This document shows, piece after piece, positions 7,697 through 60,881 of a stretch of DNA of 61,051 nucleotides. Below the pieces are notes generated by a model. That model saw only the letters and a list, made by a program, of their open reading frames with translations. It did no database searches and had not been told where the DNA came from. Source of the stretch: Propionibacteriaceae bacterium (GTDB lineage Bacteria > Actinomycetota > Actinomycetes > Propionibacteriales > Propionibacteriaceae); NCBI GenBank assembly GCA_031272505.1, contig JAISTQ010000028.1, positions 1 to 61,051 on the forward strand, in the 5' to 3' direction. A program made the position numbers and the translations under genes. The first letter of the stretch is position 1, and each line of letters opens with the position of its first letter.

Positions 7697-7795
7697 TTAT
7701 CGGGCTGCTCGTGGACTACTTCGCTGCCCGCAGACGGCCGTCCGTCGGGGTAAAGCCGTAGGTGGACAAACGCGTAGGTAGTGTAGGTTTGTCAC

Positions 7796-8533
7796 ATGGC
7801 CCGCAGATGGCAGTCAGACCGCCGACACGCCCGCGCCTGGTCTGCTTACCCGCCCGAGCAGTACCGGCTCTGGCAGAACACCGCGAACACCCGGCTGCTC
7901 GGCGACGCGATCACGCTCACCGAAACGGCCTGGCACCAGCCCTCGCTGCTGCCCGGCTGGTCCCGCGCCCACGTGGTGACGCACCTGGCCCGCGACGCCG
8001 ACGCCTACCGGCAACTGCTGCGCAACCCCGCCCTCGGCTTCGACCTCGGCTCAGACGAAGAACGCTTCCGCGCCCTCGAATCCGGCGCCGACCGCAACGC
8101 GCTGAGCCTGCTCGAAGACCTCGACAACGCCATGGGCCGCCTGGCTGACGCCGCCGCCGACGTCACTGACTGGAATCGCCCGGTCCGCATCTTCACCGAA
8201 ACCTACCCGCTCTCCTTCGTCTCCGCGCTTCGCCTGCACGAGACGCTGATCCACCACCTCGACCTGAAAGTCGGCTTCAACCCAGACGCCATCAACGAGA
8301 CGGCCGCCGCGCTGCTGCTGCACCTCGCCATCCACCTGCGCCGCAAGTCCGCCACCCCCACGATCCACATCCAATCCACTTCCGGCATCGACGAGACCCT
8401 CGGCCGCGGCGACCCCATCGCCACCGTCACCGGCCTGGACGCCCGCCTCTGGGCCTGGCTCTCCGGCCGCCTCTCCCCCACCCACATCAGCGGCGCCGCC
8501 GGCTTGGAACTGGATTTACTCACCATCGATTGA
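7796..8533 (+). CDS. Maleylpyruvate isomerase / DinB-fold family protein
   Basis: This 245-residue protein has the N-terminal signature of the mycothiol-dependent maleylpyruvate isomerase family: a helical bundle with SLLPGWSRAHVVTHLARDAD around residues 50-69. His63 and a later HETLIHH segment (Glu, then His four residues on) match the His/Glu/His metal site of the DinB/MDMPI fold. This type of enzyme uses the actinobacterial thiol mycothiol, but the substrate of this member cannot be told. It is divergent from uvrA, with a 10-bp palindrome GACGGCCGTC at 7733-7742 in the 99-bp gap. Many uncharacterised paralogs of this family act in thiol transfer or detoxification. Confidence 0.8.
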   Translation: MARRWQSDRRHARAWSAYPPEQYRLWQNTANTRLLGDAITLTETAWHQPSLLPGWSRAHVVTHLARDADAYRQLLRNPALGFDLGSDEERFRALESGADRNALSLLEDLDNAMGRLADAAADVTDWNRPVRIFTETYPLSFVSALRLHETLIHHLDLKVGFNPDAINETAAALLLHLAIHLRRKSATPTIHIQSTSGIDETLGRGDPIATVTGLDARLWAWLSGRLSPTHISGAAGLELDLLTID

Positions 8534-8570
8534 GCAACGCGAAATTTTCTTCGCTTCGCTCAGGCTCAGT

Positions 8571-8713
8571 GTGTTCGCTCCAAGCGCTCTCGCGCGTCGC
8601 TCACTGGATTCCCAGCCTGCGGCTGAGAATGACGGCGTGAGGTGGCTCTTTTCCCGTCATCCTCGACCGCAGGTCGGGGATCAAGTTCGGAGGAGCGAAG
8701 CACTCCGACGAAC
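8571..8713. repeat. Dispersed intergenic repeat, copy B (inverted pair)
   Basis: The 208-bp gap between the isomerase-like gene and terC (8534-8741) holds no gene. One unit (8571-8635) runs GTTCGCTCCAAGCGCTCTCG, then TCACTGGATTCCCAGCC, then GAGAATGACGG. A second unit (8656-8713) is in the opposite orientation, with GTCATCCTCGACC, GTCGGGGATC and GGAGCGAAGCACTCC. The pair therefore forms a long imperfect palindrome between convergent genes and might act as a bidirectional transcription stop or be a decayed miniature element. Confidence 0.6.
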
Positions 8714-8741
8714 AAAGAGCGACTGAGCGAAGCGAAGGCAA

Positions 8742-9755
8742 TTACGCGGAAGCAGGAGGGTTGCGGCGGGATTTGATGAGGCTGGCGATGGTGGTGATGG
8801 CGAGGACGCCGATGATGATGGTGAGGGAGAGCCAGATCGGGATTTCCAGGCTGTCTTTGGGGAGGCCGATGGCGACTTCGAGCCCGTATTCCGTCATCGC
8901 GTGGAAGACGAGCTTGACGCCGATGAAGCCAAGGATGATGGCGAGGCCCACGGAGAGGTAGACGAGCCGCTGCATCAGGCCGCCGATCAGGAAGTAGAGC
9001 TGCCGCAGGCCCATCAAGGCGAAGACGTTGGCGGCGAAGACCAAGTAAGCCTCTTTCGTCAAGCCGTAGATGGCGGGGATGGAATCGAGGGCGAAGAGCA
9101 GGTCGGTGGAGCCGAGGGCGACGATGACGAGGAACATGCCGGTGAACATCCGCCGGCCGTTCTTTTTATCAGGCTGGCCATGCTCGTCAAGCTTGATGAG
9201 CACCCGCTCGCCGTGGAACTCGTCGGTGACCGGCAGATGCCGCTTCACCCAGCGCATGAACGCGTTGTCCCCTTCGGATTCGTCGTCCCCGCCGTGGGAG
9301 CGGTACTCCACGTAGAGCTTGATCGCGGTGTAGATCAGGAAGGCGCCGAAGAGGAAGAACACCCAGGCGAATCGCTCGATGGCGGCCGCGCCGATCAGGA
9401 TGAAGACGAACCGGAAGATGAGCGCGAGGATGATGCCGATCATCAGGGCGAACTGCTGCAGCTGTTGCGGCACCTTCAGGTTCGACATGATGATGATGAA
9501 GATGAAGAGGTTGTCCGCCGAGAGCGAGTATTCGGTGATCCACCCGGCGAAGAACTCCGCCGAATATACCGGCCCGGAGACGAAGTACACCGCGATGCCG
9601 AAGGCGACCGCGAGCAGGCAGTAGCAGATGATGGCGGTGAGAATCTCGCGGCGGCCGGGCACATGCGGCTTCCGGCCGATCACGAAGACATCGAAAGCCA
9701 GCAGGACAACCAGCACACCGATGGTGATCAGCCAGACTTCAAGGGTGACGTGCAT
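8742..9755 (-). CDS. TerC/Alx-family integral membrane protein
   Basis: The 337-residue protein has about eight or nine hydrophobic segments and the TerC family motifs: an early FDVFVIGRK segment, DNLFIFI in the loop after the third helix, and the ALGSTDLLFALDSIPAIYGL block. The acidic residues in the DN and DSIPA motifs are the conserved metal-site candidates. TerC/Alx proteins are linked to manganese efflux and metal loading of exported enzymes, and to tellurite resistance in some contexts. It lies 51 bp after the uvrB start region on the same strand, an order common in actinobacteria. The short leader shows no yybP-ykoY riboswitch. Confidence 0.9.
   Translation of the reverse strand: MHVTLEVWLITIGVLVVLLAFDVFVIGRKPHVPGRREILTAIICYCLLAVAFGIAVYFVSGPVYSAEFFAGWITEYSLSADNLFIFIIIMSNLKVPQQLQQFALMIGIILALIFRFVFILIGAAAIERFAWVFFLFGAFLIYTAIKLYVEYRSHGGDDESEGDNAFMRWVKRHLPVTDEFHGERVLIKLDEHGQPDKKNGRRMFTGMFLVIVALGSTDLLFALDSIPAIYGLTKEAYLVFAANVFALMGLRQLYFLIGGLMQRLVYLSVGLAIILGFIGVKLVFHAMTEYGLEVAIGLPKDSLEIPIWLSLTIIIGVLAITTIASLIKSRRNPPASA

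Positions 9756-44882: not shown

Positions 44883-44886
<4 letters not shown>
43822..44886 (-). CDS. hemW: Radical SAM heme chaperone HemW
   Basis: The 354-residue product starts with GTG ([10 protein letters not shown]) overlapping the lepA stop by 4 nt (GTGA). The radical-SAM cluster motif C11-x3-C15-x2-C18 (CHTRCGYC) is followed by [10 protein letters not shown] and NPES; a C-terminal HemN-like domain ends it. HemW transfers heme to respiratory proteins; older annotations call it oxygen-independent coproporphyrinogen oxidase. lepA-hemW adjacency is common. A longer frame inside lepA is rejected. Confidence 0.93.
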
Positions 44887-46706
<1,820 letters not shown>

Positions 46707-46716
46707 TTGGGCAATC

Positions 46717-49113
46717 TTACTCGCCGCGCACCGCGAAAGTTGTCTTATCGGTCGCGGTGACGGATGTCGCGCCGAAAATCTGATCCTGCGCCACCCAGGC
46801 CGCGCCCGGATCGCCCCGATAGACGGTGCCGTCCGCCGCGAAAGCGAAGACGGAATCGTAGCCAGCCTGCAGTTTCACCACCCCCGCGCCGACCGCCACC
46901 GGGGTGGTGATCACGCCGTCGTTGCCCACCGGCTGCGAACCCCAGCCGAAGATGTCCCCGTTGGCGTTGATGGCGTAGGCGGCGTCACAGGTGGCCACAA
47001 TTTGGACGATGTCGCTCAAGCCGCTCACCTCCACCGGCTTGCCGCGGCCCTTCTTGGTGCCGTCGCCGAGTTGGCCCTTGTCGTTCTGCCCCCAGGCCAG
47101 CACCTTGCCCTCGTTCGTCAACGCGTAGCCGGAGTTGCATCCGGCGCTGACCTGCAGGATGCCGCTCAGCGCGGAGATCCGCTTCGGCGTCTTGGAATAA
47201 GGGGTGCTGGAGCCCACCCCGAAGGTGTACCAACCCCAGGCGTACACGTCCCCGTCGCCAGTCAGCGCCAGCCCGGCGGCGCAGGCGGCGGCCATGGAGA
47301 TGACGCCCTCCAAGTCCTGCACCGGGGCGGGCTGCAGTTGGTCCGCCTCGCCCCCATCGCCGACCGGCCACTGCCCCCAGCCCATCAAGGTGCCGTCAGC
47401 GAGCAGCGCGTAGGCCGCCCCACAACGGGCGTCGATGGCGGTGGCGGTGTCGATGTTTTTCACCTGCTTCGGGGACACCGCATCCTGGGTGGTGCCCACC
47501 CCGAGCTGGCCGTATTTGTTGACGCCCCAGGAGTAGATGGTGCCGTCATTGACCAAGGCATAGACGTAGCCCTGGTTCGCATCGTTGCGTGGGTTCCGCT
47601 GGTAATCCTCGGCGGCCACGAGCGCGGTCACGCCGTTCAGATCCGGGATCGGGCCGGGCGTGGCGCGATCCTCCTCGGAGCCGTCCCCGAGCAGGCCTTT
47701 GCCCGCGCCGCCCCAGGTGTAGACATCCCCCGCTTCCAGCGGGCTGCCCGTGGGCGTGGTGGGGCTGGCCGTCACCGCGGTCTCGGTGGGCGTGGGCGAA
47801 TCGGTGGGCACCGGGCCGGTGGTTTCGGTGGGAATGACGGAACCAGTCGGCGACCCGGAAGGCGACACTTCTCCCCCACCCCACGGCTGCCAGATGACCA
47901 GGCCGACCACCACGGCCACCACCAGGGCGCCGGTACCAGCCAACAGCTTGTAGTTGGGCTTGCGTCTTGGGGCGGCCACCGTCGGCTCCGGGCGGCTTTG
48001 CTCGCGCAGCACCGTATGGTCGAACAGTTCGCCGCCCAGCGAGCGCTCCGTGGCTGACGATGCCGGCAGGGGGCGGGCGCCGGCGGGCGGAATGGCGGTG
48101 ATCAAAGCGTCGGCAGGCGGCGGCGGCGGAGTGCCCGCTGTTGGCGACGGTTTGGAATCACTCCCGGAGAAGGCCCGCAACACGGTGTCGCCCACCTGAT
48201 CCGGCCCGGCTTGGGTGCCGGTGGAGCCGTATTCGTCGTTGTCGCGCAGGATCTCCATCGGCGTCGGGGTGTAGCCCAGCGTGGCCTGCACCGCGCGCAA
48301 CTGGTTTCCGAAGGCGGCGGCGGTGGGATAGCGCGAAAGCGGATTCTTGGCCATCGCCGTCTTCAACACCTGATCCAACTCCGGTGGCGCGTCGGGACGT
48401 CCGAGCGGCATATAGTCGGACAGCGCGATCCGCTCCGCCTGGGCCAGGGTGGCGTTGTCCGTACCGGCCACCTCGAAGGGGGCGCGGCCCGTCAACAGCG
48501 AATAGAGGGTGGCGGCCAGGCTCCACACGTCACCTTGCGGGGAGGCCAGCGGATCGTCGCCAAAGGATTCCGGGGCGCTCCAGGGCACGCTCAAGCCGGT
48601 GAGCGCGGAAACCTCGCCCATCACGTTCGCGGCGATGCCGAAATCGGAGAGCACCGGGCGGCCGTTCAGGTCAAAGAGGATGTTCGCGGGCTTGATGTCG
48701 CGGTGCAGGATGCCGCGCCGATGCGCCGACTCCACCGCCCCCGATAGCTGCACCCCGATGGCGAGCACCTCAGAGAGCTTGAGCTTCGCCTTGCGCCATT
48801 CGCGGCCCAGCGAGTTGCGCGGGTAGCGTTCCATGATCAGGCAGGGGCGGCCGTCCGGGGCCACCTGCACGCCGAAGATGGTGACGATGTTCGGATGTTG
48901 GCTGAGTTCGGCCATCGCGTTCGCCTCGGTGCGCAGCCGCGCCAGCACGTCCCCCTCGGCCTTGTCGGGGAGCAGCACCTTCACCGCCACCCGCCGGTAG
49001 GGCATGTCCTGTTGGTATTCGAAGACGTCCGCGAAGCCGCCTTGGCCCAGCACCGCGGTGTAGGTATATCCGGGGAGGGCGGGAGGGTTGGTCTCCCGCT
49101 GGGTCGTCACCAT
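46717..49113 (-). CDS. Transmembrane Ser/Thr kinase with RCC1 propeller ectodomain (kinase 1)
   Basis: A 798-residue receptor-like kinase. Cytoplasmic kinase domain about 15-275: Gly loop GQGGFADV (23-30), Lys45 in VAVK, Glu63, HRD at 137-139 (HRDIKPAN), DFG at 157-159, APE at 180-182. All catalytic residues are present, so it should be active. A Pro-rich linker leads to one membrane helix (about 391-408), then a Thr/Pro/Ser stalk, then about 340 outer residues of RCC1-type repeats ([60 protein letters not shown]). Four repeats carry a Cys just before the xxxYAL strand. The gene starts 2 nt after the LRR-Ig gene and ends 10 nt before lepA. It probably senses an extracellular partner. Confidence 0.93.
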
Positions 49114-49115
49114 CT

Positions 49116-51254
49116 CTACGTGCAGTACTCCTTTCCACCCACGATCTTGCAGTTGTCCTTCGGGGTGGTGTTGTTCGAAGTAGAGCCCCCAGATGAACTC
49201 TTCTTCTTTGGTTTGGGTACTGTCTTTGATGAGGTCGACTTGGTGACGGTTTTATAGCCGGCCTTGGTGCCGGTGACTTTCACGGAGATTTTCTTGCCGG
49301 CGTCTTTAGAGGTGATCTTGTACGTACTCTTGACCGCCCCGGAGATCTTCTTTCCGCTGCGGTACCACTGGTACTTCAGCTTGACGCCGGAGGGCTTCCA
49401 CTTCTTGGTGGTGACCTTCAAGGTCTGCCCGACTTTGGCGGTGCCGGAGTAGACCAGCTTTTGCGCGGTGATCTTCCCGGCGGCGATCTTCTTGGACTTC
49501 GACGTCTTCGTCACCTTCGGGAAGCCGGCGCTGGTGGTGGTGACGCTGACGGTGATCTTCTTGCCCTTGTCGGCGGCCTTCAGGGTGTACGTCAGCTTCG
49601 TCGCCCCTTTGATGGCCTTGCCGTTGCGCTTCCACTGCACGTTGAACGTGGGTGTGACCGGCTTCCAGGTGCCGGTTTTCACGCTGAGGGTCTTGCCTAC
49701 CGGGGCGGTGCCGGAGATGGTGGGGGTGGGAGTGGCGGTGAACTTGCCGGAGGCTACCGGGGCGGTGGCGACGAGCACCGGGGCGGCGACCGTGTAATAG
49801 CCGTCCTTGTACCCGGCGACCACCACCGTGATGGCGTGCTGGTAATCGGCGGAGAGCAGTTGGTAGGTCTTGGAGGTGGCGCCCGGAATCGCCACTCCGT
49901 CGCGGAACCACTGGTAGGTGAAGTAATCCGGCGCTGGCTCCCAGGTGCCTTCCACGGCGGTGAGCACCAGCCCGGCGGCCACGGTGCCGGAAATCGTCGG
50001 CGCCGGCGTCTGGTTGAACGCCACCCCGGCGATCTCCTTGGGGGCCGAACGGGCGGAGCGGCCCAGCTTTCCGGTCTTCTGCCCGACCACCTGCACCAGG
50101 ATGTAATGATCGACGTCCGCGCCCTGCAGCATGTAGCTGGACTTCGTCGCCCCCGGAATTGGCTGATAGTCGGCGGCCGTCTTGGCCTGGGCGGAGCGGT
50201 ACCACTGATACGAACCGCCCGAACCGGACTCCCAGCCGGTGAAGCTGGTCGTCAGCGTGTGGCCGAAGGTGGCGGTGCCGGAGATGGCAACCGTACCGGT
50301 ATGGGTGACCGCCCGGGTGGCCGTCATCGCCCCCGGAGCCGGCTCGCCGTCCAAAATCGCGGACGAGTCGACATTGAAAGCGGTGAGCTGCGAGTTCTGA
50401 TCCAACAGCGAGGCGGAGACGTAGCCGAGCGGATTCTCCTGCAGGTACAGGGTGGTGAGCGCCACCAAACTGTCAAAGACGCCCGGGTTGAAGCCGGTGA
50501 AGTGGTTGGCGTGCAAATCCAAGGTGCGCAACAACGTCATCGAATCGAAGATGCCGGCCGGCAGGCTGGAGAGGTTGTTGTTGTACAGGAAGAGGTACTG
50601 CAGCGCCAGCAAGTTCGCGAAGACACCGGAGGGCAGCGTGGTCAACTGGTTGTTGTAGATCTGCAGGGTGGTGAGCTTGGTCTGCGCCTTGAAGATACCC
50701 GCTGGCAAGGTGGTGAGCTGGTTCGAATAGAGATTCAGGCCGGTCAGATTGGGGAGCGGATCGAAAATGCCGTCGGGCAGCGAGCTGATCGCGTTGTCTT
50801 GCAAACTCAAGGTGGTGAGCTTGGAGTTCGCGGCGAAGACGTCCACCGGCAAGGTGGTGAGCTGGTTTCCGCCCAGGTTGAGGACGGTGAGGTTCTCCAT
50901 GGTAGCGAAAGCGCTGCTGGGGATCGAAGACAGGCTGTTGCTGGAGAGGTTGAGGCTCGTCAAGCCCTTCAGGTAGCTCAGGCCGGCGAGGCTGGAGATG
51001 CCGGATGAGGAGGCGGTGAGCGTGCCGGTGAGCGCGGCCAGATCGGTGTCCGTCACCGTGGAATCAATCGAGGCGGGCTGCGGCGACATCTTCAGCCGCA
51101 CCTTTTCCGCCAATCCGGTATCGGGGAAGAATTGGCGCAAAGTGGCGGTGACCGCCGTCAGGCGCGTCGGCGTCGGTGACCCCGGATCGGCGGCAGCTAC
51201 GGTGGTGCCGAGCAGCAACCCGATGGTCACCAACACACATACGGTCTTCTTCAT
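49116..51254 (-). CDS. Exported leucine-rich-repeat and Ig-repeat protein
   Basis: 712 residues with a signal peptide (MKKTVCVLVTIGLLLGTTVAAA). Residues about 76-295 hold nine or so LRRs of the extracellular eukaryote-like pattern (LxxLxLxxNxLxxLPxGIFDxL). Then come four Ig-like repeats (about 315-410, 415-500, 505-590, 598-685) with the words PTISGT, GTWKP, QWYRSGK and KAADKGKKITV. The end is Ser/Lys-rich and finishes NCKIVGGKEYCT, a tail shared with the Ig protein at 53460. There is no LPXTG and no membrane anchor. AAGGAGAT precedes the ATG, and an AT-rich stretch (51300-51370) probably contains its own promoter. It is coupled to kinase 1. Confidence 0.88.
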   Translation of the reverse strand: MKKTVCVLVTIGLLLGTTVAAADPGSPTPTRLTAVTATLRQFFPDTGLAEKVRLKMSPQPASIDSTVTDTDLAALTGTLTASSSGISSLAGLSYLKGLTSLNLSSNSLSSIPSSAFATMENLTVLNLGGNQLTTLPVDVFAANSKLTTLSLQDNAISSLPDGIFDPLPNLTGLNLYSNQLTTLPAGIFKAQTKLTTLQIYNNQLTTLPSGVFANLLALQYLFLYNNNLSSLPAGIFDSMTLLRTLDLHANHFTGFNPGVFDSLVALTTLYLQENPLGYVSASLLDQNSQLTAFNVDSSAILDGEPAPGAMTATRAVTHTGTVAISGTATFGHTLTTSFTGWESGSGGSYQWYRSAQAKTAADYQPIPGATKSSYMLQGADVDHYILVQVVGQKTGKLGRSARSAPKEIAGVAFNQTPAPTISGTVAAGLVLTAVEGTWEPAPDYFTYQWFRDGVAIPGATSKTYQLLSADYQHAITVVVAGYKDGYYTVAAPVLVATAPVASGKFTATPTPTISGTAPVGKTLSVKTGTWKPVTPTFNVQWKRNGKAIKGATKLTYTLKAADKGKKITVSVTTTSAGFPKVTKTSKSKKIAAGKITAQKLVYSGTAKVGQTLKVTTKKWKPSGVKLKYQWYRSGKKISGAVKSTYKITSKDAGKKISVKVTGTKAGYKTVTKSTSSKTVPKPKKKSSSGGSTSNNTTPKDNCKIVGGKEYCT

Positions 51255-51378
51255 AAATCTCCTTCGCGCTCGCAGAGCGGCACACCGGCATCCTCTAACG
51301 CAGCCAACGTGATTATTATTCTATGTTTTTCGTTCAAGATAAAAATTCCGTTCTACCAGTGGGATGTAAAAAAACCAT

Positions 51379-53460
51379 TTACGAGTCCTTTACGACAAAA
51401 GTCGTCGCCGCCGAGGCCGCCACGTCCGTCGCCCCGAGAGCGGCGTCGAGCTGCGCCCAAGCCGCGCCCGGATCGCCCCGGAACAAGGTGCCGTCCGCCC
51501 AGGAGGCGAAGACCGAACTGTATCCCGCTTGCAGTTTGGTGACGCTGCTGCCCACCACCACCGGGGTGCGCACCAATCCCCCGACCACCGCCGGATTGGA
51601 GCCCCAGCCCCAGACCTGCCCGCTGGCGTCCAGCGCGTAGGCGGCGTCGCAAGTGGCGGCGATTTGCACGATATTCGTCAACCCTTCGACGGCCACCGGA
51701 TTCGCGTGGTCCTTTTTGCCGCCATCACCGAGCTGGGCTTTCGCGTTCCCGCCCCAGGCGACCACCGTGCCATCTGCTTTGAGCGCATAGGCGGACGAGC
51801 ATCCGGCGCTGATCTGTTTGATGTCGGAGAGCTTCGCTATCTTCTTCGGCGTCTTCGCATACGGGGTGCCTGATCCCACCCCGAAGGTGTACCAGCCCCA
51901 GGCGTAGACGTTTCCCGCCTGCGTCAGCGCGAAACCGGTGGCGCAGGACGGGGCAACCTGGGTGACGTTCTTCAGGCCGCTCAACTTGACGGGCTCCAGT
52001 TGATCGCTCTCCCGGCCGTTGCCGACCGGCCACTGGCCCCAGCCGCTCACCGTGCCGTTGGCGTGCAGCGCGTAGGCCGAGCCGCAGGCCGCGGCCACGC
52101 CGACCGCGTCCTTGACGCCCTTCACCTGCTTCGGGCTGACCACCTCCTGGGTGGTGCCCACGCCGAGCTGGCCGTACTTGTTGGCGCCCCAGGCGTAGAT
52201 GGTGCCATCGCCCAAAAGCGCGTAGGCGTAGCCCTGATCCGGCTTGTCCCACGGATCGTCCTGGTAATCCTCGCCGGCGGCGACCGCGATCACCCCGGTG
52301 AGTTCAGTGATCGGCCCGGGCGTCTCGCGGGCGACTTCGGTGCCGTCGCCAAGCAGCCCGTTCTTGGCGCTCCCCCAGCTATAGACCGTGCCGACTTGCA
52401 GCGGGCTGGTGGGGGTGACGGCGGTGGGCTCCGGAGCCGGTTCGGCGGTCGGCGTCACTTCGGGGGTGGCGACCGGTTCGCTGGCGGCGGGCTCGGTGGG
52501 CGTGTCCGTGGTGGCGGTCTCGGTCGGCGTGGCGGCCGGAGGGACGGAGGCGCTGGGGCTGGCGGTCGGGGCGGCGCCCTCCCAAGGCTTGAGCCAGATC
52601 AACAGCCCGGCGATGATGACCACCGCCAATCCCCCGGCGATGGCGAGGATCGGCTTGCGGCGGCCTTTGCCGCGCTTGGGTTTGGGCGGCTGCAGCGCCA
52701 ACTCCTCGCTGGTGGAGCGCATGATCGTCTGCTCCAGCACCTCTCCGCCCAGCGATACTTCGTCGGCGACCGCGTATTTCAACGTCGGAGTGGGCGGAGT
52801 ATCGAGGGCGACGGTGGGCTGGGCGGCGCTGTAATCCGGCGGCGGGGCCGCTGGGGGCACGGGCGGGACGGACTCCGGTGATGGCGTGACGGGCGGCTCG
52901 GGCGTGGGGGTGGCGGGCTCGGGGACGGGCGCGGACTTCGGGGCGACCACCGGGGCGCCAGCCGCCAACTGGGCTTGCACCGCCATCAGGGCGTTGCGGA
53001 AGGCCCGGGCGGTCGGATAGCGGCTGCCCGGCTGCTTGGCGAGCGCGGTGCGCAGCACCTGGTCCAGCTCCGGCGGGGCGTCCGGACGGCCCAGCGGGAT
53101 GTACTCGAAGCGGGCCAGCGGGGCGATCGGCTTGGAGAAATCCGGATTCGGGTCTTGGTATGGGGCCCGTCCGGTGAGCAGCGAGTACAGCGTGGCGGCC
53201 AAGCTCCACACGTCCGCCTGCTCGGTGGCCGGGTTGGCGCTGCCGAAGGCCTCGGGAGCCTTCCAGAGGATCGCCTCCGGGGGCGGGTAGGGTGACGGGG
53301 CGGCCAGCATCGCCTGCCCCGCGTCGTCAAAGAGGATGTTGGTGGGCCGGATGTCTTGGTGCAGCATCCCGGCCTCATGCGCGGTCTTCAGCTGGTCAGC
53401 CAGCTTGACGCCGATGGCGAGGACCTGGTCCACCGGCTTGATCTCAGGCAGGATGCTCAT
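51379..53460 (-). CDS. Transmembrane pseudokinase with RCC1 propeller ectodomain
   Basis: 693 residues from the ATG at 53460, which overlaps the upstream Ig gene stop (TGATG). The protein begins at what is helix E of kinase 1 (VDQVLAIGVKLADQLKTAHE). The Gly loop, the VAVK lysine and the alpha-C Glu are absent, HRD is changed to HQD (34-36), and the DFG segment is replaced by AAPSPY. C-lobe parts remain ([25 protein letters not shown]). A Pro/Thr-rich linker, one membrane helix (about 271-289) and a full RCC1 ectodomain (from about 355) follow, closely matching kinase 1 including the four Cys. It cannot be a normal kinase; a scaffold or decoy receptor is plausible. No frameshift hides an N-lobe: the preceding DNA is the Ig gene. 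Confidence 0.9.
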   Translation of the reverse strand: MSILPEIKPVDQVLAIGVKLADQLKTAHEAGMLHQDIRPTNILFDDAGQAMLAAPSPYPPPEAILWKAPEAFGSANPATEQADVWSLAATLYSLLTGRAPYQDPNPDFSKPIAPLARFEYIPLGRPDAPPELDQVLRTALAKQPGSRYPTARAFRNALMAVQAQLAAGAPVVAPKSAPVPEPATPTPEPPVTPSPESVPPVPPAAPPPDYSAAQPTVALDTPPTPTLKYAVADEVSLGGEVLEQTIMRSTSEELALQPPKPKRGKGRRKPILAIAGGLAVVIIAGLLIWLKPWEGAAPTASPSASVPPAATPTETATTDTPTEPAASEPVATPEVTPTAEPAPEPTAVTPTSPLQVGTVYSWGSAKNGLLGDGTEVARETPGPITELTGVIAVAAGEDYQDDPWDKPDQGYAYALLGDGTIYAWGANKYGQLGVGTTQEVVSPKQVKGVKDAVGVAAACGSAYALHANGTVSGWGQWPVGNGRESDQLEPVKLSGLKNVTQVAPSCATGFALTQAGNVYAWGWYTFGVGSGTPYAKTPKKIAKLSDIKQISAGCSSAYALKADGTVVAWGGNAKAQLGDGGKKDHANPVAVEGLTNIVQIAATCDAAYALDASGQVWGWGSNPAVVGGLVRTPVVVGSSVTKLQAGYSSVFASWADGTLFRGDPGAAWAQLDAALGATDVAASAATTFVVKDS

Positions 53461-54473
53461 CAGGTGCACACCTGCTTTCCGGCGACGGTCTTGCAGTTTG
53501 AGGTCGGGGTGGAGGGCGTGGTGCCCGAGCTGCTCGATCCGGAACTACTTGACGACTTCTTCGCGGCGATCGATTTCGCGGCGGTGGTCTTGGTGAGCGT
53601 GGTGTAGCCGGACTTCGAGCCGGTCACCTTAGCGGTGATCTTCTTGCCTTGGTCGGCGGCGACGACTTTGTACGACCGCTTCGTGGCCCCGGAGATCTTC
53701 TTGCCGCTGCGATACCACTGCACTTTCAGCTTGACGCCGCTGGGCTTCCACTTCCCGACCGTCAACTTCAGCGTCGCCCCCTTCTTGGCGCTGCCGCTCA
53801 GCTTCGGGGTGGGCGCGGTGAGCTTGCCGGCCGCCACCTTTTTCGCCTTGGAGGTCTTCGTCACTTTCGGGAAGCCGGCGCTGACAGCCGATACCGCCAC
53901 GGTGAGCTTCTTGCCCTTGGCGGCGGCTTTCAGGGTGTAGCTGCGGCCGGTGGCCCCCGGAATGGCCTTGCCATTCAGATACCACTGCACGGAGAAGCTG
54001 GGGGTGAGCGGCTTCCAGGTGCCGGTCTTCACCGTCAACTTGCTGCCCACCCGCACGGTGCCGGAGATGGTCGGGGCGGGGGTGGCGGTGAAGGTGCCCG
54101 GGCCGATCAGCGGCGTCGCGGTGAGCGAGCCGGTCGACCGCGGATCGTATCCGGCCTTGTAGGCGGTGATCCCCACCGACAGCGCCGTTTGGTAATCGGC
54201 CGCCTGCACCCGGTAGCTGCGCGCGTTCGCGCCCAGGATGGGCTGGTTGTTGCGGTACCACTGGTAGGCGAAGCCATCCGGGGTGGGCACCCAGGTGCCT
54301 TCCACGGCGGTGAGCACCGCGCCCACCGTGGCCGACCCGCTGATCGTCGGATTCGGAGCGACGGCAAAGGTGGCCGCGGGCACCGGTGGCGCGGCGGCAG
54401 TGGTGGTGACGGCGGTGGTGACAGCGCCCAGGCACAGCGCAGTGGCGAGTGCGGTAATAGCCAGCTTCCTCAT
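53460..54473 (-). CDS. Exported Ig-repeat protein
   Basis: 337 residues with a signal peptide (MRKLAITALATALCLGAVTTA). The mature protein is three Ig-like repeats (about 40-125, 127-210, 215-300) with PTISGS/GT, GTWxP, QWYRNN/SGK and a Gly-Lys-Lys-hydrophobic strand, the same type as in the LRR-Ig protein. A Ser-rich stretch leads to the end SNCKTVAGKQVCT, matching the other tail. GGGGGGATC lies before the ATG, and a TAGAAT hexamer in the 131-bp leader may be its -10. The stop overlaps the pseudokinase start, so both are translated together. Confidence 0.88.
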   Translation of the reverse strand: MRKLAITALATALCLGAVTTAVTTTAAAPPVPAATFAVAPNPTISGSATVGAVLTAVEGTWVPTPDGFAYQWYRNNQPILGANARSYRVQAADYQTALSVGITAYKAGYDPRSTGSLTATPLIGPGTFTATPAPTISGTVRVGSKLTVKTGTWKPLTPSFSVQWYLNGKAIPGATGRSYTLKAAAKGKKLTVAVSAVSAGFPKVTKTSKAKKVAAGKLTAPTPKLSGSAKKGATLKLTVGKWKPSGVKLKVQWYRSGKKISGATKRSYKVVAADQGKKITAKVTGSKSGYTTLTKTTAAKSIAAKKSSSSSGSSSSGTTPSTPTSNCKTVAGKQVCT

Positions 54474-54604
54474 GATCCCCCCGTGGTTTCGGCTGACAAC
54501 CGGCCAGGTGGGAGCACACCTGACGCTTTTCTCAGGCCATTCTAATAAATGAATCGCCTAGCTCGAAACCGAATCCCGTTTTCGCGCGGGAGTTTACAAA
54601 AGTC

Positions 54605-55582
54605 TTAGAACATGGAACTCACCATGATGGTGGTGAGCAGGTACAGCACGATGAAGAGCACCACAAAGGTGAGGCCGACCACCAGGATGTAAGACCAGAA
54701 TCCGTTGGTCTTGGTCTGCCCGGCCTTCTGGATGCCGGCGTAAGCGAGCACGATGGTGGCGAGGAAGCTGACCAGCAAGATTCCCAAGCCGAGCAACCCG
54801 ACCCCCATTCCGATCAAGTTGCCGCCCAGCAGGCCGATCGAGAGGGGGATGAACGCCACCGAGGTGTAGTTGAGGCTGCGCGTGTACGGCAGTTTCAGCC
54901 CTTGGGTGGAGAAGATGATGTGGATGCCGGTGGCGAAGCCAAAATACAGGGCGGCCCCCGTGAACAGGCCATAGAGAATCAACAGGCCCCACGGGAAATA
55001 GATGCCGAACAATCCGCCGTAGGAGAACAAACTGGTAGCGCCCACCAGCGAGAGCAGGGACACGATGATCCAGATCAGCACATGGCCGCCGCCCAGCACC
55101 GCCCACACCGGCGAGGTGAACTGGGCTGACTGGCCGACCGCCTCGGGGGCCTGCTTGGAGAAGACGCCCTTGAACGCTTGGCCGAACTCTTGGCCAAAGA
55201 CGCTGGGCGGTTTCGGCGTGCCCGGATAGCCGGGGTAGGCTCCCGGTGCGCCCGGATACGGCCCGGGCTGCCCGACCTGCGGTTGCACGTAGGGAAGCGG
55301 GCCGGACGAGTTCTGCCACTGGCCTTCGGGTTGGGCGGGGACTTGCGGCAATGGGCCGGACGGCTCGGCGCCACCACTCCGACGGGCCTGCACCGCGGCG
55401 CTCACCTGCGGATCCCCCAGCGAGTTGAGCCAATCCAGCAAGCCGTCGTAGGCGGCCGGATGCGCGGCGATCTGCGCCCGCAGGCCGGGCTGCGCCTGCG
55501 CGATCTGCGCCAGATCGGCGGCTGGAGTGGACGGGTTGTTCAAGGCGGCCTGCGCCTGCCCGAAATCGGTGTAATCAGCCAT
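54605..55582 (-). CDS. Variant-leucine-rich-repeat membrane protein
   Basis: 325 residues from the ATG at 55582 (GGGAGG upstream). Residues about 5-70 (QAQAALNNPSTPAADLAQIA, LRAQIAAHPAAYDGLLDWLN) match the variant LRR (LRV) helix repeats that actinobacteria attach to kinases and membrane proteins. A Pro/Gly/Gln/Tyr-rich linker follows, then six membrane helices (about 165-325). No signal peptide, so the LRV part is cytoplasmic. It heads the minus-strand run of the island and is divergent from rpsT. A link to kinase signalling is contextual only. Confidence 0.75.
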   Translation of the reverse strand: MADYTDFGQAQAALNNPSTPAADLAQIAQAQPGLRAQIAAHPAAYDGLLDWLNSLGDPQVSAAVQARRSGGAEPSGPLPQVPAQPEGQWQNSSGPLPYVQPQVGQPGPYPGAPGAYPGYPGTPKPPSVFGQEFGQAFKGVFSKQAPEAVGQSAQFTSPVWAVLGGGHVLIWIIVSLLSLVGATSLFSYGGLFGIYFPWGLLILYGLFTGAALYFGFATGIHIIFSTQGLKLPYTRSLNYTSVAFIPLSIGLLGGNLIGMGVGLLGLGILLVSFLATIVLAYAGIQKAGQTKTNGFWSYILVVGLTFVVLFIVLYLLTTIMVSSMF

Positions 55583-55721
55583 TGGTCCTCCCAAAATGAA
55601 GCGCAGGATGCGCTGTGGCAGATATTATCTCATGCGCGACTCTTCACCCCGTCAGCTTGCCATGAGGACAACTGCGGCCCGCCACCGCGCGGATTATCGC
55701 TTTTTGCCGCATTCCGTCGGC

Positions 55722-55750
55722 TTGAGTGGCGGCGGGGAAAGTGGTAGGGT
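55722..55750 (+). promoter_or_regulatory. rpsT promoter
   Basis: TTGAGT (55722-55727) and TAGGGT (55745-55750) are 17 nt apart, a common actinobacterial housekeeping pattern. The start near 55757 gives a leader of about 50 nt before rpsT. Confidence 0.6.
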
Positions 55751-55807
55751 TGCTGGTTGCGCCTATTGGCGTGCAGGTTTTCAACAGACAAGACGAAGGC
55801 GATCCAC

Positions 55808-56071
55808 GTGGCAAACATCAAGTCGCAGAAGAAGCGCATTGGTACCAACGAGAAGGCGCGGCTGCGCAACAAGAGCGTGAAGTCCGCGCTCCGTACCTCG
55901 ATCCGCAAGTTCCACGAAGCTGTAGATGCTGGCGAGACGGAAAAGGCCGCCGAGTTGGCCCGCAGCGCCACCCGCGCGCTTGACAAGGCCGCATCCAAGG
56001 GCGTCATCCACAAGAACCAAGCCGCCAATCGCAAGTCCGCCGTCGCCGCAAAGGCTGCTACGCTGGCGTAG
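55808..56071 (+). CDS. rpsT: Ribosomal protein S20
   Basis: An 87-residue S20 starting with GTG: (M)[20 protein letters not shown], then [15 protein letters not shown] and a C-terminal helix ending [14 protein letters not shown]. Helical, Lys/Ala-rich, normal in length. GAAGG lies upstream. A longer frame from 55757 adds non-S20 residues and is rejected. It lies inside the kinase island, on the opposite strand to the kinases, while lepA, its usual neighbour, is 9 kb to the left. Confidence 0.95.
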
Positions 56072-56174
56072 TGACGCACCGCCCACCCGCCTCTTATCTC
56101 ACCTCCCACAACCCCTGTGCTCGGGGTCCAGTTGGCTGCTGATTTATGGAGATCATCATTGACGGGGTAGGAAG

Positions 56175-56220
56175 CGGCCCCAATAGGGTCAAAATCGGCA
56201 TTTTTCACGAATCGGGGCCG
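56175..56220. other. Inverted and direct repeats in the rpsT / kinase 3 gap
   Basis: The 262-bp gap between these convergent genes shows no gene. CGGCCCC (56175-56181) and GGGGCCG (56214-56220) form a 7-bp inverted repeat with a 32-nt loop containing ATTTTT; GGCCCCAATAG occurs at 56177-56187 and again at 56282-56292. They may help end transcription from both sides. Confidence 0.35.
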
Positions 56221-56333
56221 GTCCAGCCGGTCTGCGAGGGCGGGTTTACGCTCAACTCACCCGTCGATACGCACCGGGAGTGGCCCCAATAGCTGAAAAC
56301 CGCCCCAAAAACCACAATCGTGGGTTCGCCGGA

Positions 56334-58721
56334 TCAGGCGGGGGCGCGGAGGGCGAAGCGGGTGGTTTGGCAGGTTTGTTTGAGGCAGGCGTCTTTTTCG
56401 GCGGTGGCGTCGGCGCCGACGATGGTGGTGGCGCCAAAGAGGTCGGGGGCGGGGTTGGTCTGTTGGTAGACGGTGCCGTCGGCGGTGAAGGAGTAGAGGG
56501 CGGAATAGGTGGCGGAGATGCGGGCGATGCCCGTCAAGCCGGAGATTTGGACGGGGGTGGATTTCGCCTTCGCATAGCCGGGCAGGTTCGCGCCCCAGCC
56601 CCAGACCGTCCCGTCAGCCAACAGCGCGAAGGCCCCGTTGCTGGTGGCGGTGACGTCCACCACGTTTTCGAGCCCCTTCACCTTGACTGGTTTCGCGGAA
56701 TCCTTGGTGCCGCCGTTGCCCAGCGCCCCGTTCTTGCCCGAGCCCCAGGCGTATACCAACCCGTCAGCCGTCAAGGCGTAGTAGGTGTACTGTCCGACGG
56801 CCACGTCGACGCAGTTGGGCAGCCCGGAGATCAGCTTGGGCTTGGTGCTCAGCTCCCACTTGGTCTTGCCGTCCTGTTTGGCGTAGTAGCCCCAGCCGTA
56901 CACCTCGCCGCTCCCGGTGAGCGCGAAGGCGGCGTTCCAGGAGACCGCCAACTGCCGGATGTCGCTGACGCCCGGCACCTCCACCGGGGCGGAATGGCTG
57001 GCAGACGAGCCGTCACCGATGAATTTCTCGCCCCAGCCGTGGAGTTTGCCGTCGGCGGTGATCGCGAAGGCGGTGGTGTAGCCCGCGTAGATGGCGCTGA
57101 CATTCGACAGCGCGGTGAGCTGGGTGGGCTGGGTGCGCGTCTCCTTGTCCCCCAAGCCGAGTTGCCCCAGGTTGTTCCTCCCCCACGTCCAGACGCTGCC
57201 GTCGGCGCGCAGCAGATAGGCGGATTCCATCCCGGCCGCCAGTTGCGTCACCTCGCCTGGCTCGACGGCGAGTGTCGGCGTCTCCACCTTGGCGTCGCCG
57301 CCGCCGGCCAGCAACCCGTTGGTGGGACTCCCCCAGGCATAAACGAAGCCAGCCTGCAGCGGGCTCTCCGGGATCGGTTCGACGGACGGAGTCGGCGAAG
57401 ACGTTTGGGTGGGGGTGAGAGCGGGCTCCCCGACGTCGGTCGGATTGACGCTGGGAGTGCGGGTGACGGAGATGCTCGGCGAGGCGGACGGGTTGCCGGT
57501 GGGCGTCGGAAGGTTGTTCACCACCAGCACCGCCGCCAGGGCGACGGCGGCGACCCCCAGCCCGGCGAACAGCCAAGCCCTGCGACGCTGGCGCTGCGGG
57601 GCGGGTGGTGCGGGTTTGGCGGCTTTCGCCGACGAGGTGGACGACAGCGCGGTGGTATCGGTCGCGAGCGCGTCAAGCGGCTCAGGTGGGGCGCTGACCG
57701 GTTCCGGGAGTGACGGACCGGTCGGCTTCGACGCGACGGGCGGCTCCGGCGCAACGGGAGGCTCGGGCGGTTCGGCTGGCAACCCGGGCAGCGGCCGCAA
57801 CGACGTCATGGTGGTGGTGTCGTCCGTCTCCTCCACGCTGGCCCCATAGCCTTCGTCGTGGATCAGGATCTCCATCTCGGTGGGCGCATACCCCAGCGAG
57901 CCCTGCACCGCGCGCAGCGCGTTCCCAAAGGCGGCCGCCGTCGGATAGCGCGATTCGGGGGCCTTCGCCATCGCGGTGCGCAACACCTGCTCCACCGAAT
58001 CGGGGACGTCGCGTCGACCCGTGGGCGCGTATTCGAAGCGCTCGATGCGTTTGCGGTGGCTGTTGACGGAATTGTCGCCGCCGACCACCTCGAAGGGCGC
58101 CCGTCCGGCCAGCAGCGAGTAGAGCGTGGCCGCCAAACTCCACACGTCAGTCTGCGGGTTAGCCACCGGCGTGGTGGAGAAAGCCTCCGGCGGGCTCCAC
58201 GGCACCGAGAGCCCGGCCAGGCCCTCGCGGGTGTCGGTCACCGTGGTGGAGATGCCGAAATCGGAAAGCACCGGGCGGCGGTTCCGGTCGAAGAGGATGT
58301 TGGCGGGCTTGATGTCGCGGTGGAAGACCCCGGCCTGATGCGCCGATTCCACCGCCCCGGCCAACTGCACCCCGATCGCCAGCACCCGGGCCACTGGCAG
58401 CTTGGCCTTCCGCCAGGTCTTGCCCAGCGAGTTGTCCGGGTAGCGCTCCATGATCAGGTAGGGGCGGCCGTCGTCCGCCACTCCGGCGCCAAAGACCGTC
58501 ACGATGTTCGGATGCTGGCTCAGATCGGCCATCGCGTTCGCCTCGGCGCGCAGGTTGCCAGCCACATCGCCGGCGTCCGGACGGGGCAGCAACACCTTCA
58601 CCGCCACCCGGCGGCGCGGCATCTCCTGCTGGTATTCGAAGACGTCCGCGAAACCGCCGCTGCCTAGCAACGAGACGTACTCCAATCCGGGAATTCCGGG
58701 TGGGACAACCTCTCGTTCCAT
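56334..58721 (-). CDS. Transmembrane Ser/Thr kinase with RCC1 propeller ectodomain (kinase 3)
   Basis: 795 residues from the ATG at 58721. Kinase domain about 12-275: Gly loop GSGGFADV (20-27), Lys42 in VAVK, HRD 134-136, DFG 154-156; the usual APE is PPE (187-189), probably tolerated. A long Pro-rich juxtamembrane region precedes a membrane helix (about 382-402), a Thr/Pro/Ser stalk and an RCC1-type ectodomain (from about 455: VYAWGSPTNGLLAGGG, VWTWGRNNLGQLGLGD, VYAWGSGKNGALGNGG, VWGWGANLPG). The ectodomain lacks the Cys ladder of kinase 1 but has two Cys near the end (ACLKQTC). It is divergent from the propeller-Ig protein, start codons 33 nt apart. Confidence 0.92.
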   Translation of the reverse strand: MEREVVPPGIPGLEYVSLLGSGGFADVFEYQQEMPRRRVAVKVLLPRPDAGDVAGNLRAEANAMADLSQHPNIVTVFGAGVADDGRPYLIMERYPDNSLGKTWRKAKLPVARVLAIGVQLAGAVESAHQAGVFHRDIKPANILFDRNRRPVLSDFGISTTVTDTREGLAGLSVPWSPPEAFSTTPVANPQTDVWSLAATLYSLLAGRAPFEVVGGDNSVNSHRKRIERFEYAPTGRRDVPDSVEQVLRTAMAKAPESRYPTAAAFGNALRAVQGSLGYAPTEMEILIHDEGYGASVEETDDTTTMTSLRPLPGLPAEPPEPPVAPEPPVASKPTGPSLPEPVSAPPEPLDALATDTTALSSTSSAKAAKPAPPAPQRQRRRAWLFAGLGVAAVALAAVLVVNNLPTPTGNPSASPSISVTRTPSVNPTDVGEPALTPTQTSSPTPSVEPIPESPLQAGFVYAWGSPTNGLLAGGGDAKVETPTLAVEPGEVTQLAAGMESAYLLRADGSVWTWGRNNLGQLGLGDKETRTQPTQLTALSNVSAIYAGYTTAFAITADGKLHGWGEKFIGDGSSASHSAPVEVPGVSDIRQLAVSWNAAFALTGSGEVYGWGYYAKQDGKTKWELSTKPKLISGLPNCVDVAVGQYTYYALTADGLVYAWGSGKNGALGNGGTKDSAKPVKVKGLENVVDVTATSNGAFALLADGTVWGWGANLPGYAKAKSTPVQISGLTGIARISATYSALYSFTADGTVYQQTNPAPDLFGATTIVGADATAEKDACLKQTCQTTRFALRAPA

Positions 58722-58725
58722 GGAC

Positions 58726-58736
58726 GATAGACTATC
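58726..58736. promoter_or_regulatory. Palindrome between divergent kinase 3 and propeller-Ig genes
   Basis: GATAG-A-CTATC is a perfect 11-bp palindrome in the 33-nt gap between the two start codons. TATAGA on the minus strand and CTATAAG on the plus strand next to it could act as back-to-back -10 elements. With so little room, leaders must be very short or the promoters lie in the opposite coding regions. Confidence 0.4.
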
Positions 58737-58754
58737 TATAAGAGGGGGGCTCAA

Positions 58755-60881
58755 ATGAGATTCGCTGCGGTACGGGACATGCGGAAGGCCCGATTCGCGG
58801 TGGCCACGGTGTTGTGTGTCGCGCTGCTTTTCGGCCTCTTGGCGTCGGTGCCCCCGGAAGGCACCCGGGCTGGGGCCGCCACGGATACCTGGGTGAAAAC
58901 CTACGGGGGCTCTGCCGATGACGTCTTCCGGGATGTGAAAGCGACGGCGGATGGTGGGTTCGTCGCGGTGGGGTACAGCACTTCCTTCGACTGGGATTTG
59001 GGGTCTCCGTATGGCGGTAAAGAGGCTTTCATCCAGAAGTACAGCGCGGCTGGTGCAGTGCAGTGGACTTCAAAGCTCGGTGGGACCGGTGACGACGCCT
59101 TCGAGGCGGTTGCCCTGCTTCCGTCCGGCGGATACCTGGCGGCCGGTTGGTCTTGTTCCGATGACGGAGACTTCCTATACGGTAAGAGCGGTGAGCTCAG
59201 CTACAACAAGGGTGCCTGCGATGGGGTGGTCGCAGAGTATGCCGCCAATGGGAGTCTCTCATGGTTCGAGAACATCGGCGGCAGCATGAACGATTACATC
59301 TACTCCATCATTGTCTCGGCTACCGGAGGCTACGCCGCAGTGGGCAGTTCTGAGAGTGCTGCGTTTTTGCCGAGCAAGAACGGCACTTCAGACGCTTTCA
59401 TCTACTTCTCCGGAGATGCTACCTACCCTTCCTGGAAAAAGAACGTTGGCGGAACTGCCGCGGACACCTTCAGGGGCATAACCCAGGCTCTCGATGGTGG
59501 CTTGGTGGCCGTCGGCAACACGGCGGATGCCACCTTGATACCGTCAGTTGGCAACGCCACCGGCTCGGCGGTGATCGCCAAGTTCACAATGGATGGAACC
59601 CAAGCCTGGTTGAGCCGGGTCGGCGGCTCGACTGCTGATTCCTTGGAATCGGTAACCGCTGCCCCGGACGGCGGCGTGGTGGCGGTGGGCTACTCCAGTT
59701 CAGGGGGTGTGGGAATTCTGGCCAGCCTCGGCATGGCCGACGGAATCATCGCCAAGTTTGACGCATCTGGCAACCAGCAGTGGCTGGTAAACGCTGGCGG
59801 TTCCAACAACGACTATCTGTATGCAATCACCGCATCATCTCCGGGGTACCTGATCGCAGGTAACGCCTTGTCAGGAGACGGTTGGCTGTCGCGATTGCTA
59901 GCCGGCCAGAATGCCTTCGTCGCCAAGATCGATGAATCTGGTAACCGGGCATGGGTGGTGAGTACCGGTGGTGGTAAGCATGACCATTTCTATTCGGTGA
60001 GCAGTTTTGCCGATGGCTCCTACTTTGCGGCGGGTACTACAAACTCAGATGACGGGGACATCACCGCTCCCAGGGGTGGATACGACGGGCTGGTCGCCAA
60101 AGGTTTCGACTCGACCGCTGTGATCTCGCCGATTCCGACGCTGACCACTTCGCCGACTACGACGTCGTCGAAGTCGCCTTCTGCGTCGCCTTCGAAGACC
60201 ACCTCCTCGACGCCGACGCCGACGCAGGAGATTCCGGATGTGAAGGAGGGGTCGAAGAAGTATACGAAGGCGCCGACGCCGACGATTTCGGGGGTGAAGC
60301 GGGTTGGGAAGAAGTTGACGGCGAAGGCGGGTACTTGGGCGCCGGCGAAGGTGCAGCTCACTTATAACTGGTATCGGAATGGGAAGAAGATTGTGGGCGC
60401 GTACCTGTCGACGTATACGCTTACGGCGTCGGATCAGGGGAAGCGGATCACGGTGAAGGTGACCGGTTATAAGGATGGGTATACGACGACGGCGAAGACG
60501 TCGAAGCAGACGGGGAAGATCGCGGTTGGGAAGCTGTCGCGGAAGCCGTTGCCGAATATTGTGGGTGTGAAGAAGGTGGGGAGTAAGTTGACGGCGAAGC
60601 CGGGTTTGTGGAAGCCGGCGGTGAAGAAGAAGTATCAGTGGTATCGGAATGGGAAGAAGATCAAGGGGGCGACGAAGGCCACCTATAAGTTGAAGGCCGC
60701 TGATGCGGGGAAGCGCATCACGGTGAAACTCACCGCTTCGCGGGCCGGCTACAAGTCCGTCAGCAAGATTTCCAAAGCCGTCAAGATCGCCGCCCTCCCC
60801 AAACCCACACCAACACCCGTCCCGACGCCTACCCCGTCAACCATTCCGACCCAGTGTGACAACCCCTCCGGCAAATGCTGA
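58755..60881 (+). CDS. Exported seven-repeat beta-propeller / Ig-repeat protein
   Basis: 708 residues; GAGGGGGG precedes the ATG, and a signal peptide (FAVATVLCVALLFGLLASV) follows a basic start. Residues about 45-455 contain seven repeats with the core GG(S/T)xxDxxxxV...GGxVAVG: YGGSADDVF, LGGTGDDAF, IGGSMNDYI, VGGTAADTF, VGGSTADSL, AGGSNNDYL and GGGKHDHFY. This suggests a seven-bladed propeller of the bacterial SBBP type. A Ser/Thr/Pro linker, two Ig-like repeats (NWYRNGKKIVGA, QWYRNGKKIKGA) and a Thr/Pro tail ending QCDNPSGKC follow. From about 60120 the DNA switches to different codon choice (many TCG, ACG, AAG, TTG). It is the exported partner gene of kinase 3. Confidence 0.87.
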   Translation: MRFAAVRDMRKARFAVATVLCVALLFGLLASVPPEGTRAGAATDTWVKTYGGSADDVFRDVKATADGGFVAVGYSTSFDWDLGSPYGGKEAFIQKYSAAGAVQWTSKLGGTGDDAFEAVALLPSGGYLAAGWSCSDDGDFLYGKSGELSYNKGACDGVVAEYAANGSLSWFENIGGSMNDYIYSIIVSATGGYAAVGSSESAAFLPSKNGTSDAFIYFSGDATYPSWKKNVGGTAADTFRGITQALDGGLVAVGNTADATLIPSVGNATGSAVIAKFTMDGTQAWLSRVGGSTADSLESVTAAPDGGVVAVGYSSSGGVGILASLGMADGIIAKFDASGNQQWLVNAGGSNNDYLYAITASSPGYLIAGNALSGDGWLSRLLAGQNAFVAKIDESGNRAWVVSTGGGKHDHFYSVSSFADGSYFAAGTTNSDDGDITAPRGGYDGLVAKGFDSTAVISPIPTLTTSPTTTSSKSPSASPSKTTSSTPTPTQEIPDVKEGSKKYTKAPTPTISGVKRVGKKLTAKAGTWAPAKVQLTYNWYRNGKKIVGAYLSTYTLTASDQGKRITVKVTGYKDGYTTTAKTSKQTGKIAVGKLSRKPLPNIVGVKKVGSKLTAKPGLWKPAVKKKYQWYRNGKKIKGATKATYKLKAADAGKRITVKLTASRAGYKSVSKISKAVKIAALPKPTPTPVPTPTPSTIPTQCDNPSGKC

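Follow-up and report, generated by a model that had tools for sequence, protein, structure and literature searches.

Every kinase gene with an RCC1 ectodomain detected in the genome of a Propionibacteriaceae bacterium stands beside a gene for an exported immunoglobulin (Ig)-repeat protein. The window analysed here is the whole of contig C25 (JAISTQ010000028.1, 61,051 bases) of an assembly of 2.23 Mb in 67 contigs (completeness 98.35, contamination 0.12). It carries three such pairs, kinases K1–K3 with partners E1–E3, and two more lie on contigs C30 and C60. Adjacency in 5/5 cases, at three loci on three contigs and in three gene arrangements, together with a short two-cysteine tail common to the five partners, favours a functional unit over chance. 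That the pairs do form such a unit we regard as probable; that each serves as a cell-surface sensor in two parts, with the exported protein as the adaptor of its receptor kinase, we would put at about an even chance.

Exported Ig genes adjoin the five RCC1-kinases of this genome

In pair 1, E1 ends in TAG and is separated by two bases (AG) from the ATG of K1; E2 and K2 overlap in TGATG, and E3 and K3 are divergent, 33 nt apart. On C30 an exported leucine-rich repeat (LRR)-Ig gene (754 aa) lies 6 nt ahead of the kinase, and on C60 another (599 aa) begins 1 nt past it. The exported gene thus comes ahead of the kinase in three pairs and follows it in one (C60), the remaining pair being divergent. 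With an estimated ~20 Ig genes among ~2000, adjacency at three independent loci would arise by chance at ~1e-5. K1/K2 and E1/E2 are mutually closest (ectodomains 61%, Ig parts 67%), values that make a single copied block the probable origin of pairs 1 and 2. The pairs are not all copies of a single block, since gene order varies and the Ig part of E3 is nearer to those of proteins on contig C12 (72–73%) than to that of E1 (50%). Coordinates are given in Table 1.

Table 1. Features of the three pairs in the window.
Feature	Position	Strand	Remarks
K1, membrane kinase, 798 aa	46717..49113	-	ATG at 49113
E1, exported partner	49116..51254	-	signal peptide (by eye), LRR head, Ser-rich stalk, tail
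K2, pseudokinase	51379..53460	-	start inside E2 stop (TGATG)
E2, exported partner	53460..54473	-	three Ig-type repeats after a signal peptide (by eye), then Ser-rich stalk and tail; headless
K3, membrane kinase, RCC1 ectodomain without blade cysteines	56334..58721	-	ATG at 58721
E3, exported partner	58755..60881	+	SBBP/delta-60-type head, two Ig-type repeats, Pro/Thr stalk, tail
E1 tail, CKIVGGKEYCT	49119..49151	-	residues 702-712
E2 tail, CKTVAGKQVCT	53463..53495	-	modelled beta-hairpin
E3 tail, CDNPSGKC	60855..60878	+	residues 701-708
K1 stretch with the only four ectodomain cysteines	46987..47424	-	residues 564, 611, 659, 709

Kinases with intact and degenerate catalytic domains

Genome-wide, 41 RCC1 (PF00415) matches and 13 Pkinase frames were found, and the two domains shared a frame in five cases, the three in the window and those on C30 and C60. 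A profile search agreed, returning five matches at 1049–1252 bits and then, at 397 bits, a kinase on contig C7 without RCC1 repeats. K1 (Pfam: Pkinase 6e-37, RCC1 1e-36) has its kinase domain at residues 16–263, its strongest hydrophobic stretch, a putative transmembrane segment, at ~390–409, and six RCC1 units within 462–758. The active-kinase motifs VAxK, HRDxKxxN and DFG are complete in K1 and in K3 (Pkinase 1e-36, RCC1 4e-33), for which TTG at 58754 offers a longer alternative start. In K2 (RCC1 5e-37; putative transmembrane segment ~271–290, RCC1 units 357–652) the kinase domain is partial (profile positions 105–252), without N-lobe, glycine loop or DFG, and HQDIRPTN replaces HRDIKPAN. 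The C60 kinase reads HGDIRPSN, with VAVK and DFG, and the C30 kinase departs from the active motifs with HGNIKPSK and DLG. Two kinases keep an intact ectodomain despite a degenerate catalytic part. Every kinase has its most hydrophobic stretch after basic residues and before the RCC1 part, an order from which the RCC1 part should lie outside the cell. RCC1-repeat genes without a kinase domain also occur in this genome (L009:5370-8081 on C8, L010:5975-7357 on C30, L011 on C46 and L014:4739-6385 on C57).

Exported partners share a two-cysteine tail

Ig-type repeats and a low-complexity stalk are common to all five partners, whose heads are LRR in three, SBBP-type in one and lacking in one; export was called from signal peptides by eye. 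E1 matches LRR models at 2e-45 and has four Ig-type repeats at 323–679, and the head of E3 matched SBBP/delta-60-type models below their cut-offs. Pfam gave modest Ig matches, with SCAB-Ig at 5e-10 in E1 and only matches under the cut-off in E2 and E3. An AlphaFold 2 (AF2) model of E2, built from 22 sequences, has a mean predicted local distance difference test (pLDDT) score of 88.3, with three beta-sandwiches mostly >90 and the stalk <50, and Foldseek returned for it tandems of Ig and fibronectin type III (FN3) domains, including titin FnIII, CD22 and ICAM.

Each partner carries C-x(4-8)-C at its extreme C-terminus, and in mature E1 and E2 cysteines occur in this tail only. In the E2 model the tail forms two strands (327–330 and 333–336) with the cysteine pair at the hairpin ends (local pLDDT ~61–73), and the segment is probably a hairpin closed by a disulphide. 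The pattern C-x(3,10)-C-x(0,2)-end was searched in 300 genes with complete C-termini. These came from a simple calling script run on the window and on stretches of the same genome picked, non-randomly, around RCC1, kinase and Ig matches. The pattern occurred in seven: the five partners, one protein on C54 and one on C12. Among own-genome Ig frames with a complete C-terminus the tail was present in 5/5 partners against 2/14 others (Fisher p 0.0018, for a grouping picked after the data were seen), a count that leaves aside one frame truncated where its contig (C12) stops and the matches on C32, C34 and C46, which fell in no called Ig frame. Ig matches at 1e-25 occurred in 50/197 family genomes (own included), and the best Ig homologues from 28 other family genomes had the tail in 0/28 cases, ending with the last Ig domain or shortly beyond it; these come from 29 loci, one per genome, one of which was cut, and weaker homologues in those genomes went unread.

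The C54 protein (L013:8794-11412) is one exported chain that combines an RCC1 propeller with three Listeria-Bacteroides (List_Bact) repeats and a pair of Ig repeats and bears the tail PCEYGTDKC; by its domain content it reads as a natural fusion of both modules of the system. On C12, exported SBBP-type/Ig genes stand in tandem (L197:4850-6982 and 7074-9002), the first with the tail PCEFGTDKC and the second cut by the contig end.

These results largely bear out a first-pass annotation of this DNA, which had described the three kinase/exported pairs with their 2-nt gap, TGATG overlap and 33-nt divergence, had called the pairing constant, and had noted that the exported proteins share repeats and tail; the pairing extends to the two pairs outside the window, and so do the Ig-type repeats and two-cysteine end. 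Its statement that the kinases share a domain order holds for K1 and K3 (Pkinase and RCC1) but not for K2, a truncated pseudokinase. The exported proteins that it described by their Ig repeats do have such repeats in E1–E3, but are not made of Ig alone, given the heads of E1 and E3.

A predicted UVR8-like propeller with four cysteines in a repeated turn

The AF2 model of the K1 ectodomain (8 sequences; pLDDT 92.7, predicted TM-score 0.91) has UVR8 as its best PDB match by Foldseek (E 3.5e-26, TM-score 0.82), with HERC1/2, RCC1 and BLIP-II also matched, and predicts a UVR8-like RCC1 propeller, taken as seven-bladed from the repeat and fold matches. Its four cysteines sit one per blade in successive blades, always at the equivalent hairpin turn, and phmmer places the third on the Trp of the UVR8 motif GWRHT in two blades. 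W233, W285 and W337 of GWRHT are described as lying within the UVR8 dimer interaction surface (PMC9546227, PMC4501546). None of the five ectodomains contains GWRHT itself. The K1, K2 and C30 ectodomains have exactly four cysteines each, in the same turn, that of K3 has three elsewhere and that of C60 has none. Partners of the four-cysteine kinases end in CK-x3-GK-x2-C, and those of K3 and C60 in shorter tails, a correspondence in sequence that is suggestive only.

Origin and distribution of the kinases

Related kinases without RCC1 are mostly proteins of ~500 aa; at 1e-60 one or two were found in 15/29 other genus genomes and none in 14. To the C7 kinase of the same genome, K1 and K3 are 61% and 60% identical. 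A Bifidobacterium bombi kinase (L154) shows 39% over residues 9–286 and has a Big_9/fn3 neighbour; the nearest named kinases, among the matches listed, are from Propionibacteriaceae metagenome-assembled genomes (MAGs). RCC1-kinases were found in 0/29 other genus, 0/197 other family, 0/116 order and 0/107 class genomes, in overlapping sets searched at thresholds of 1e-60 to 1e-95 and with 5–9 candidates per genome scored for family, order and class.

The best 80 related loci listed from genome contigs contained 71 kinase frames, in 69 of the loci, a few of them other kinases. The kinase neighbours in Cellulomonas (L083) and B. bombi (L154), both Big_9 and fn3 proteins of 2053 aa, supplied Ig/FN3 parts as queries, and in 25/71 frames a gene homologous to one of these parts lay within two genes downstream. 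With wider queries, 30 had an Ig/FN3 neighbour, 19 only an FHA-like gene and 18 neither, and four stood at a contig edge. The small gene right behind the canonical kinase is FHA-like by eye only, with no Pfam match on C7 or C54. One Propionibacteriaceae MAG locus (L080), presumably from termite gut to judge by isolate naming, carries MoxR, DUF58, transglutaminase (Tgm), PP2C, the kinase and an FHA and FtsK/SpoIIIE protein. Arrangements such as MoxR-DUF58-transglutaminase-PP2C-kinase (L080) and kinase, Big_9/fn3 and MoxR (L083) are seen in Propionibacteriaceae and Cellulomonas, although the linked PFNA cluster (pkb2, fn3, aaa-atp, duf58, tgm) has been called unique to bifidobacteria (PMC8430577).

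The RCC1 profile flagged one of the 80 loci, in a deltaproteobacterial MAG (L158; 26% match over residues 16–734). This gene (L158:3531-5501) is an independent case of kinase and RCC1 ectodomain, cut by the contig end, and no Ig gene was called on its 5.5 kb. Phage and plasmid collections held no record with one place covering 80% of K1; the matches listed cover the kinase half or, in one case, the RCC1 half only. One of them, MT835585.1:19333-20292, labelled bacteriophage and from human faeces, encodes a kinase 46% identical to K1 residues 1–319 and is possibly bacterial DNA in a phage-labelled contig.

Neighbourhood of the pairs

Pairs 1 and 2 are flanked by lepA (44883-46706) on one side and the S20 gene (55757-56071) on the other, with pair 3 beyond S20. 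We take lepA and S20 to be neighbours in many actinobacteria, and the island at 46707-55756 may be an insertion between them. An LRV_2-domain protein with a C-terminal part hydrophobic by eye is encoded between pair 2 and S20 (54605-55594). A TIR-domain gene (L010:14803-16320) immediately follows the C30 pair on the opposite strand, and a transglutaminase-like gene (Bact_transglu_N and core; L015:11204-12067) is placed likewise behind the C60 partner. No MoxR or DUF58 gene was seen beside the pairs: neighbours by Pfam are lepA, S20, LRV_2 and radical SAM in the window, TIR and DUF2130 on C30, and aldehyde dehydrogenase and the soluble-type Bact_transglu_N on C60, and the other neighbours were judged by eye. 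A search for a shared promoter motif upstream of the pairs gave one 8-mer, in 3/5, and sigma-70 and terminator scans near them were close to chance. Foreign DNA or mis-binning is unlikely, given the high completeness and low contamination, lepA and S20 beside the pairs, and a GC content of 59–71% over 40000-61051.

Discussion

The favoured reading begins with a duplicated PFNA-type receptor kinase, the ancestral form of which would still stand on C7, whose small ectodomain was swapped for an RCC1 beta-propeller. The neighbouring gene would supply an exported adaptor whose head varies, whose Ig array is constant and whose flexible stalk leads to an end bounded by two cysteines. This constant end may dock on the propeller's loop face, which in UVR8 serves for dimerisation, and the docked adaptor's head would then present its bound target to the kinase. 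Signalling by phosphorylation would fall to K1 and K3, while adaptors might be held or modulated without catalysis by K2, by the C30 copy and probably by the C60 copy. The presence of BLIP-II, a protein-binding propeller, among the matches of the K1 ectodomain speaks for this reading, as do the different Ig subgroup of E3, by which pair 3 is no simple copy of pair 1, and the two partners that sit beside degenerate kinases with intact ectodomains. Direct contact between kinase and partner seems to us evenly balanced; contact through tail and propeller face is a more tentative proposal.

Several observations weigh the other way. Distance matrices of ectodomains and Ig parts correlate weakly (r 0.69; 9/120 relabellings as good), and those of kinases and Ig parts are uncorrelated (r 0.17; 44/120). 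All pairs are known from one fragmented genome, and K1 and K2 are recent copies, so the match of tails with propeller cysteines spans few lineages. The E2 tail hairpin has only modest pLDDT, the placing of the cysteines on one face rests on secondary structure and homology, and another blade alignment, ungapped to its end, puts the first K1 cysteine on the Cys before GWRHT. The tail proteins of C54 and C12 have no kinase called alongside, the C12 contig ending within the next gene. Disulphide exchange between tail and propeller was rejected as a general rule, the C60 ectodomain (K60) having no cysteine.

The strongest competitor, which we consider somewhat unlikely, takes the tail as a surface-retention or sorting signal and has the kinase control production or maturation of its neighbour without contact, as a regulator with its adhesin. 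The tail's presence on two Ig proteins that have no adjacent kinase call fits this, as does the lack of any lipobox or sortase signal by eye; adjacency of kinase and exported Ig-FN3 protein moreover recurs in the PFNA-type stock (the 25/71 frames above), where the FN3 protein is reported as an adhesin (PMC6803598). A general sorting signal sits less well with a tail absent from the 28 complete homologues of relatives and from 12/12 other complete Ig frames of this genome, with the absence of any NCBIfam sorting model among the matches at E up to 1, and with ectodomains kept in two kinases whose catalysis has decayed, which better fits a role for the ectodomain. Chance followed by duplication, in which Ig genes are common and one accidental neighbourhood was copied, can draw on the frequency of Ig repeats (33 own-genome matches, besides the family genomes counted above) and on the probable copying of pairs 1 and 2. 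It is nevertheless improbable in the face of three loci, three orders, the separate Ig subgroup of E3, the estimate of ~1e-5 from approximate gene counts, and the specificity of the tail. Least probable in our view is that the exported proteins are directed at the host or at other microbes, on which they would work as adhesins or secreted factors, while the kinase separately senses the wall, the shared locus being one of niche-specific surface genes. This genome does contain several RCC1 and Ig genes that lack an adjacent kinase, and the provenance of the nearest named kinases agrees with such a niche, but the strict spacing (2 nt, TGATG, 6 nt, 1 nt) and a tail in all five partners do not favour it.

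BLIP-II of Streptomyces is a soluble inhibitor that binds its protein partner tightly. Its RCC1-like propeller (structures 3qhy, 1jtd) resembles the K1 ectodomain in predicted fold, and would also resemble it in binding a protein partner, although it is no receptor ectodomain. UVR8 shares the fold, and a cysteine of the K1 blade turn lies at its GWRHT Trp position, but the K1 ectodomain would be extracellular, is carried on a bacterial kinase, lacks GWRHT and gives no sign of light sensing. PASTA kinases (PknB/Stk1) have the same one-pass layout of a bacterial Ser/Thr kinase; K1 and K3 reach only 153 and 159 bits against an NCBIfam cut-off of 450, and Pfam finds no PASTA domain. Eukaryotic LRR-Ig co-receptors set an LRR head on an Ig stalk beside a receptor kinase. 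The likeness is one of working only, with no homology claimed, and the exported proteins here differ in having a two-cysteine tail and no visible membrane anchor.

PFNA comes closest, being likewise a single-pass Ser/Thr kinase with a variable outer part and an exported Ig-fold neighbour, and the present kinases classify as Pkb2-type, of the same stock. They differ in the RCC1 propeller and five copies, and their partners match LRR, SCAB-Ig/IG_AIR9 and SBBP-type models, not fn3 or Big_9, and bear the two-cysteine tail; the Bact_transglu_N gene behind the C60 partner weighs against too strict a contrast. The first-pass annotation's view that no described system has this composition needs narrowing, as the known PFNA cluster of bifidobacteria already sets a kinase alongside an exported FN3 protein (PMC6803598, PMC8430577). 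Since PFNA-like kinases often lie near an Ig/FN3 gene and PFNA itself is described, having an exported Ig-fold protein encoded beside the kinase reads, from gene content, as an old trait of this stock. New here are an ectodomain made of RCC1 repeats, partners of the LRR/SBBP type, their tail, and a five-fold expansion with dead copies. No description of RCC1-ectodomain bacterial kinases appeared among the literature matches listed, and a literature search on a secretion-type operon found nothing.

A bolder picture, doubtful as it stands, is that interchangeable extracellular adaptors (LRR-Ig or propeller-Ig) plug a disulphide-closed hairpin into the propeller's cysteine ring or equivalent loops, with dead copies as decoys or scaffolds, in a bacterial counterpart of the LRR/Ig co-receptors of plants and animals. 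For most bacterial Ser/Thr receptor kinases we know of no extracellular ligand or co-receptor; here each candidate receptor adjoins a candidate partner, five times over, with a short common tail and a specific putative site on the propeller. If true, this would show the way in which a modular receptor-adaptor repertoire is assembled in a bacterium, and it would offer a lead for the PFNA-type kinases of other actinobacteria, for which a candidate partner is often encoded nearby.

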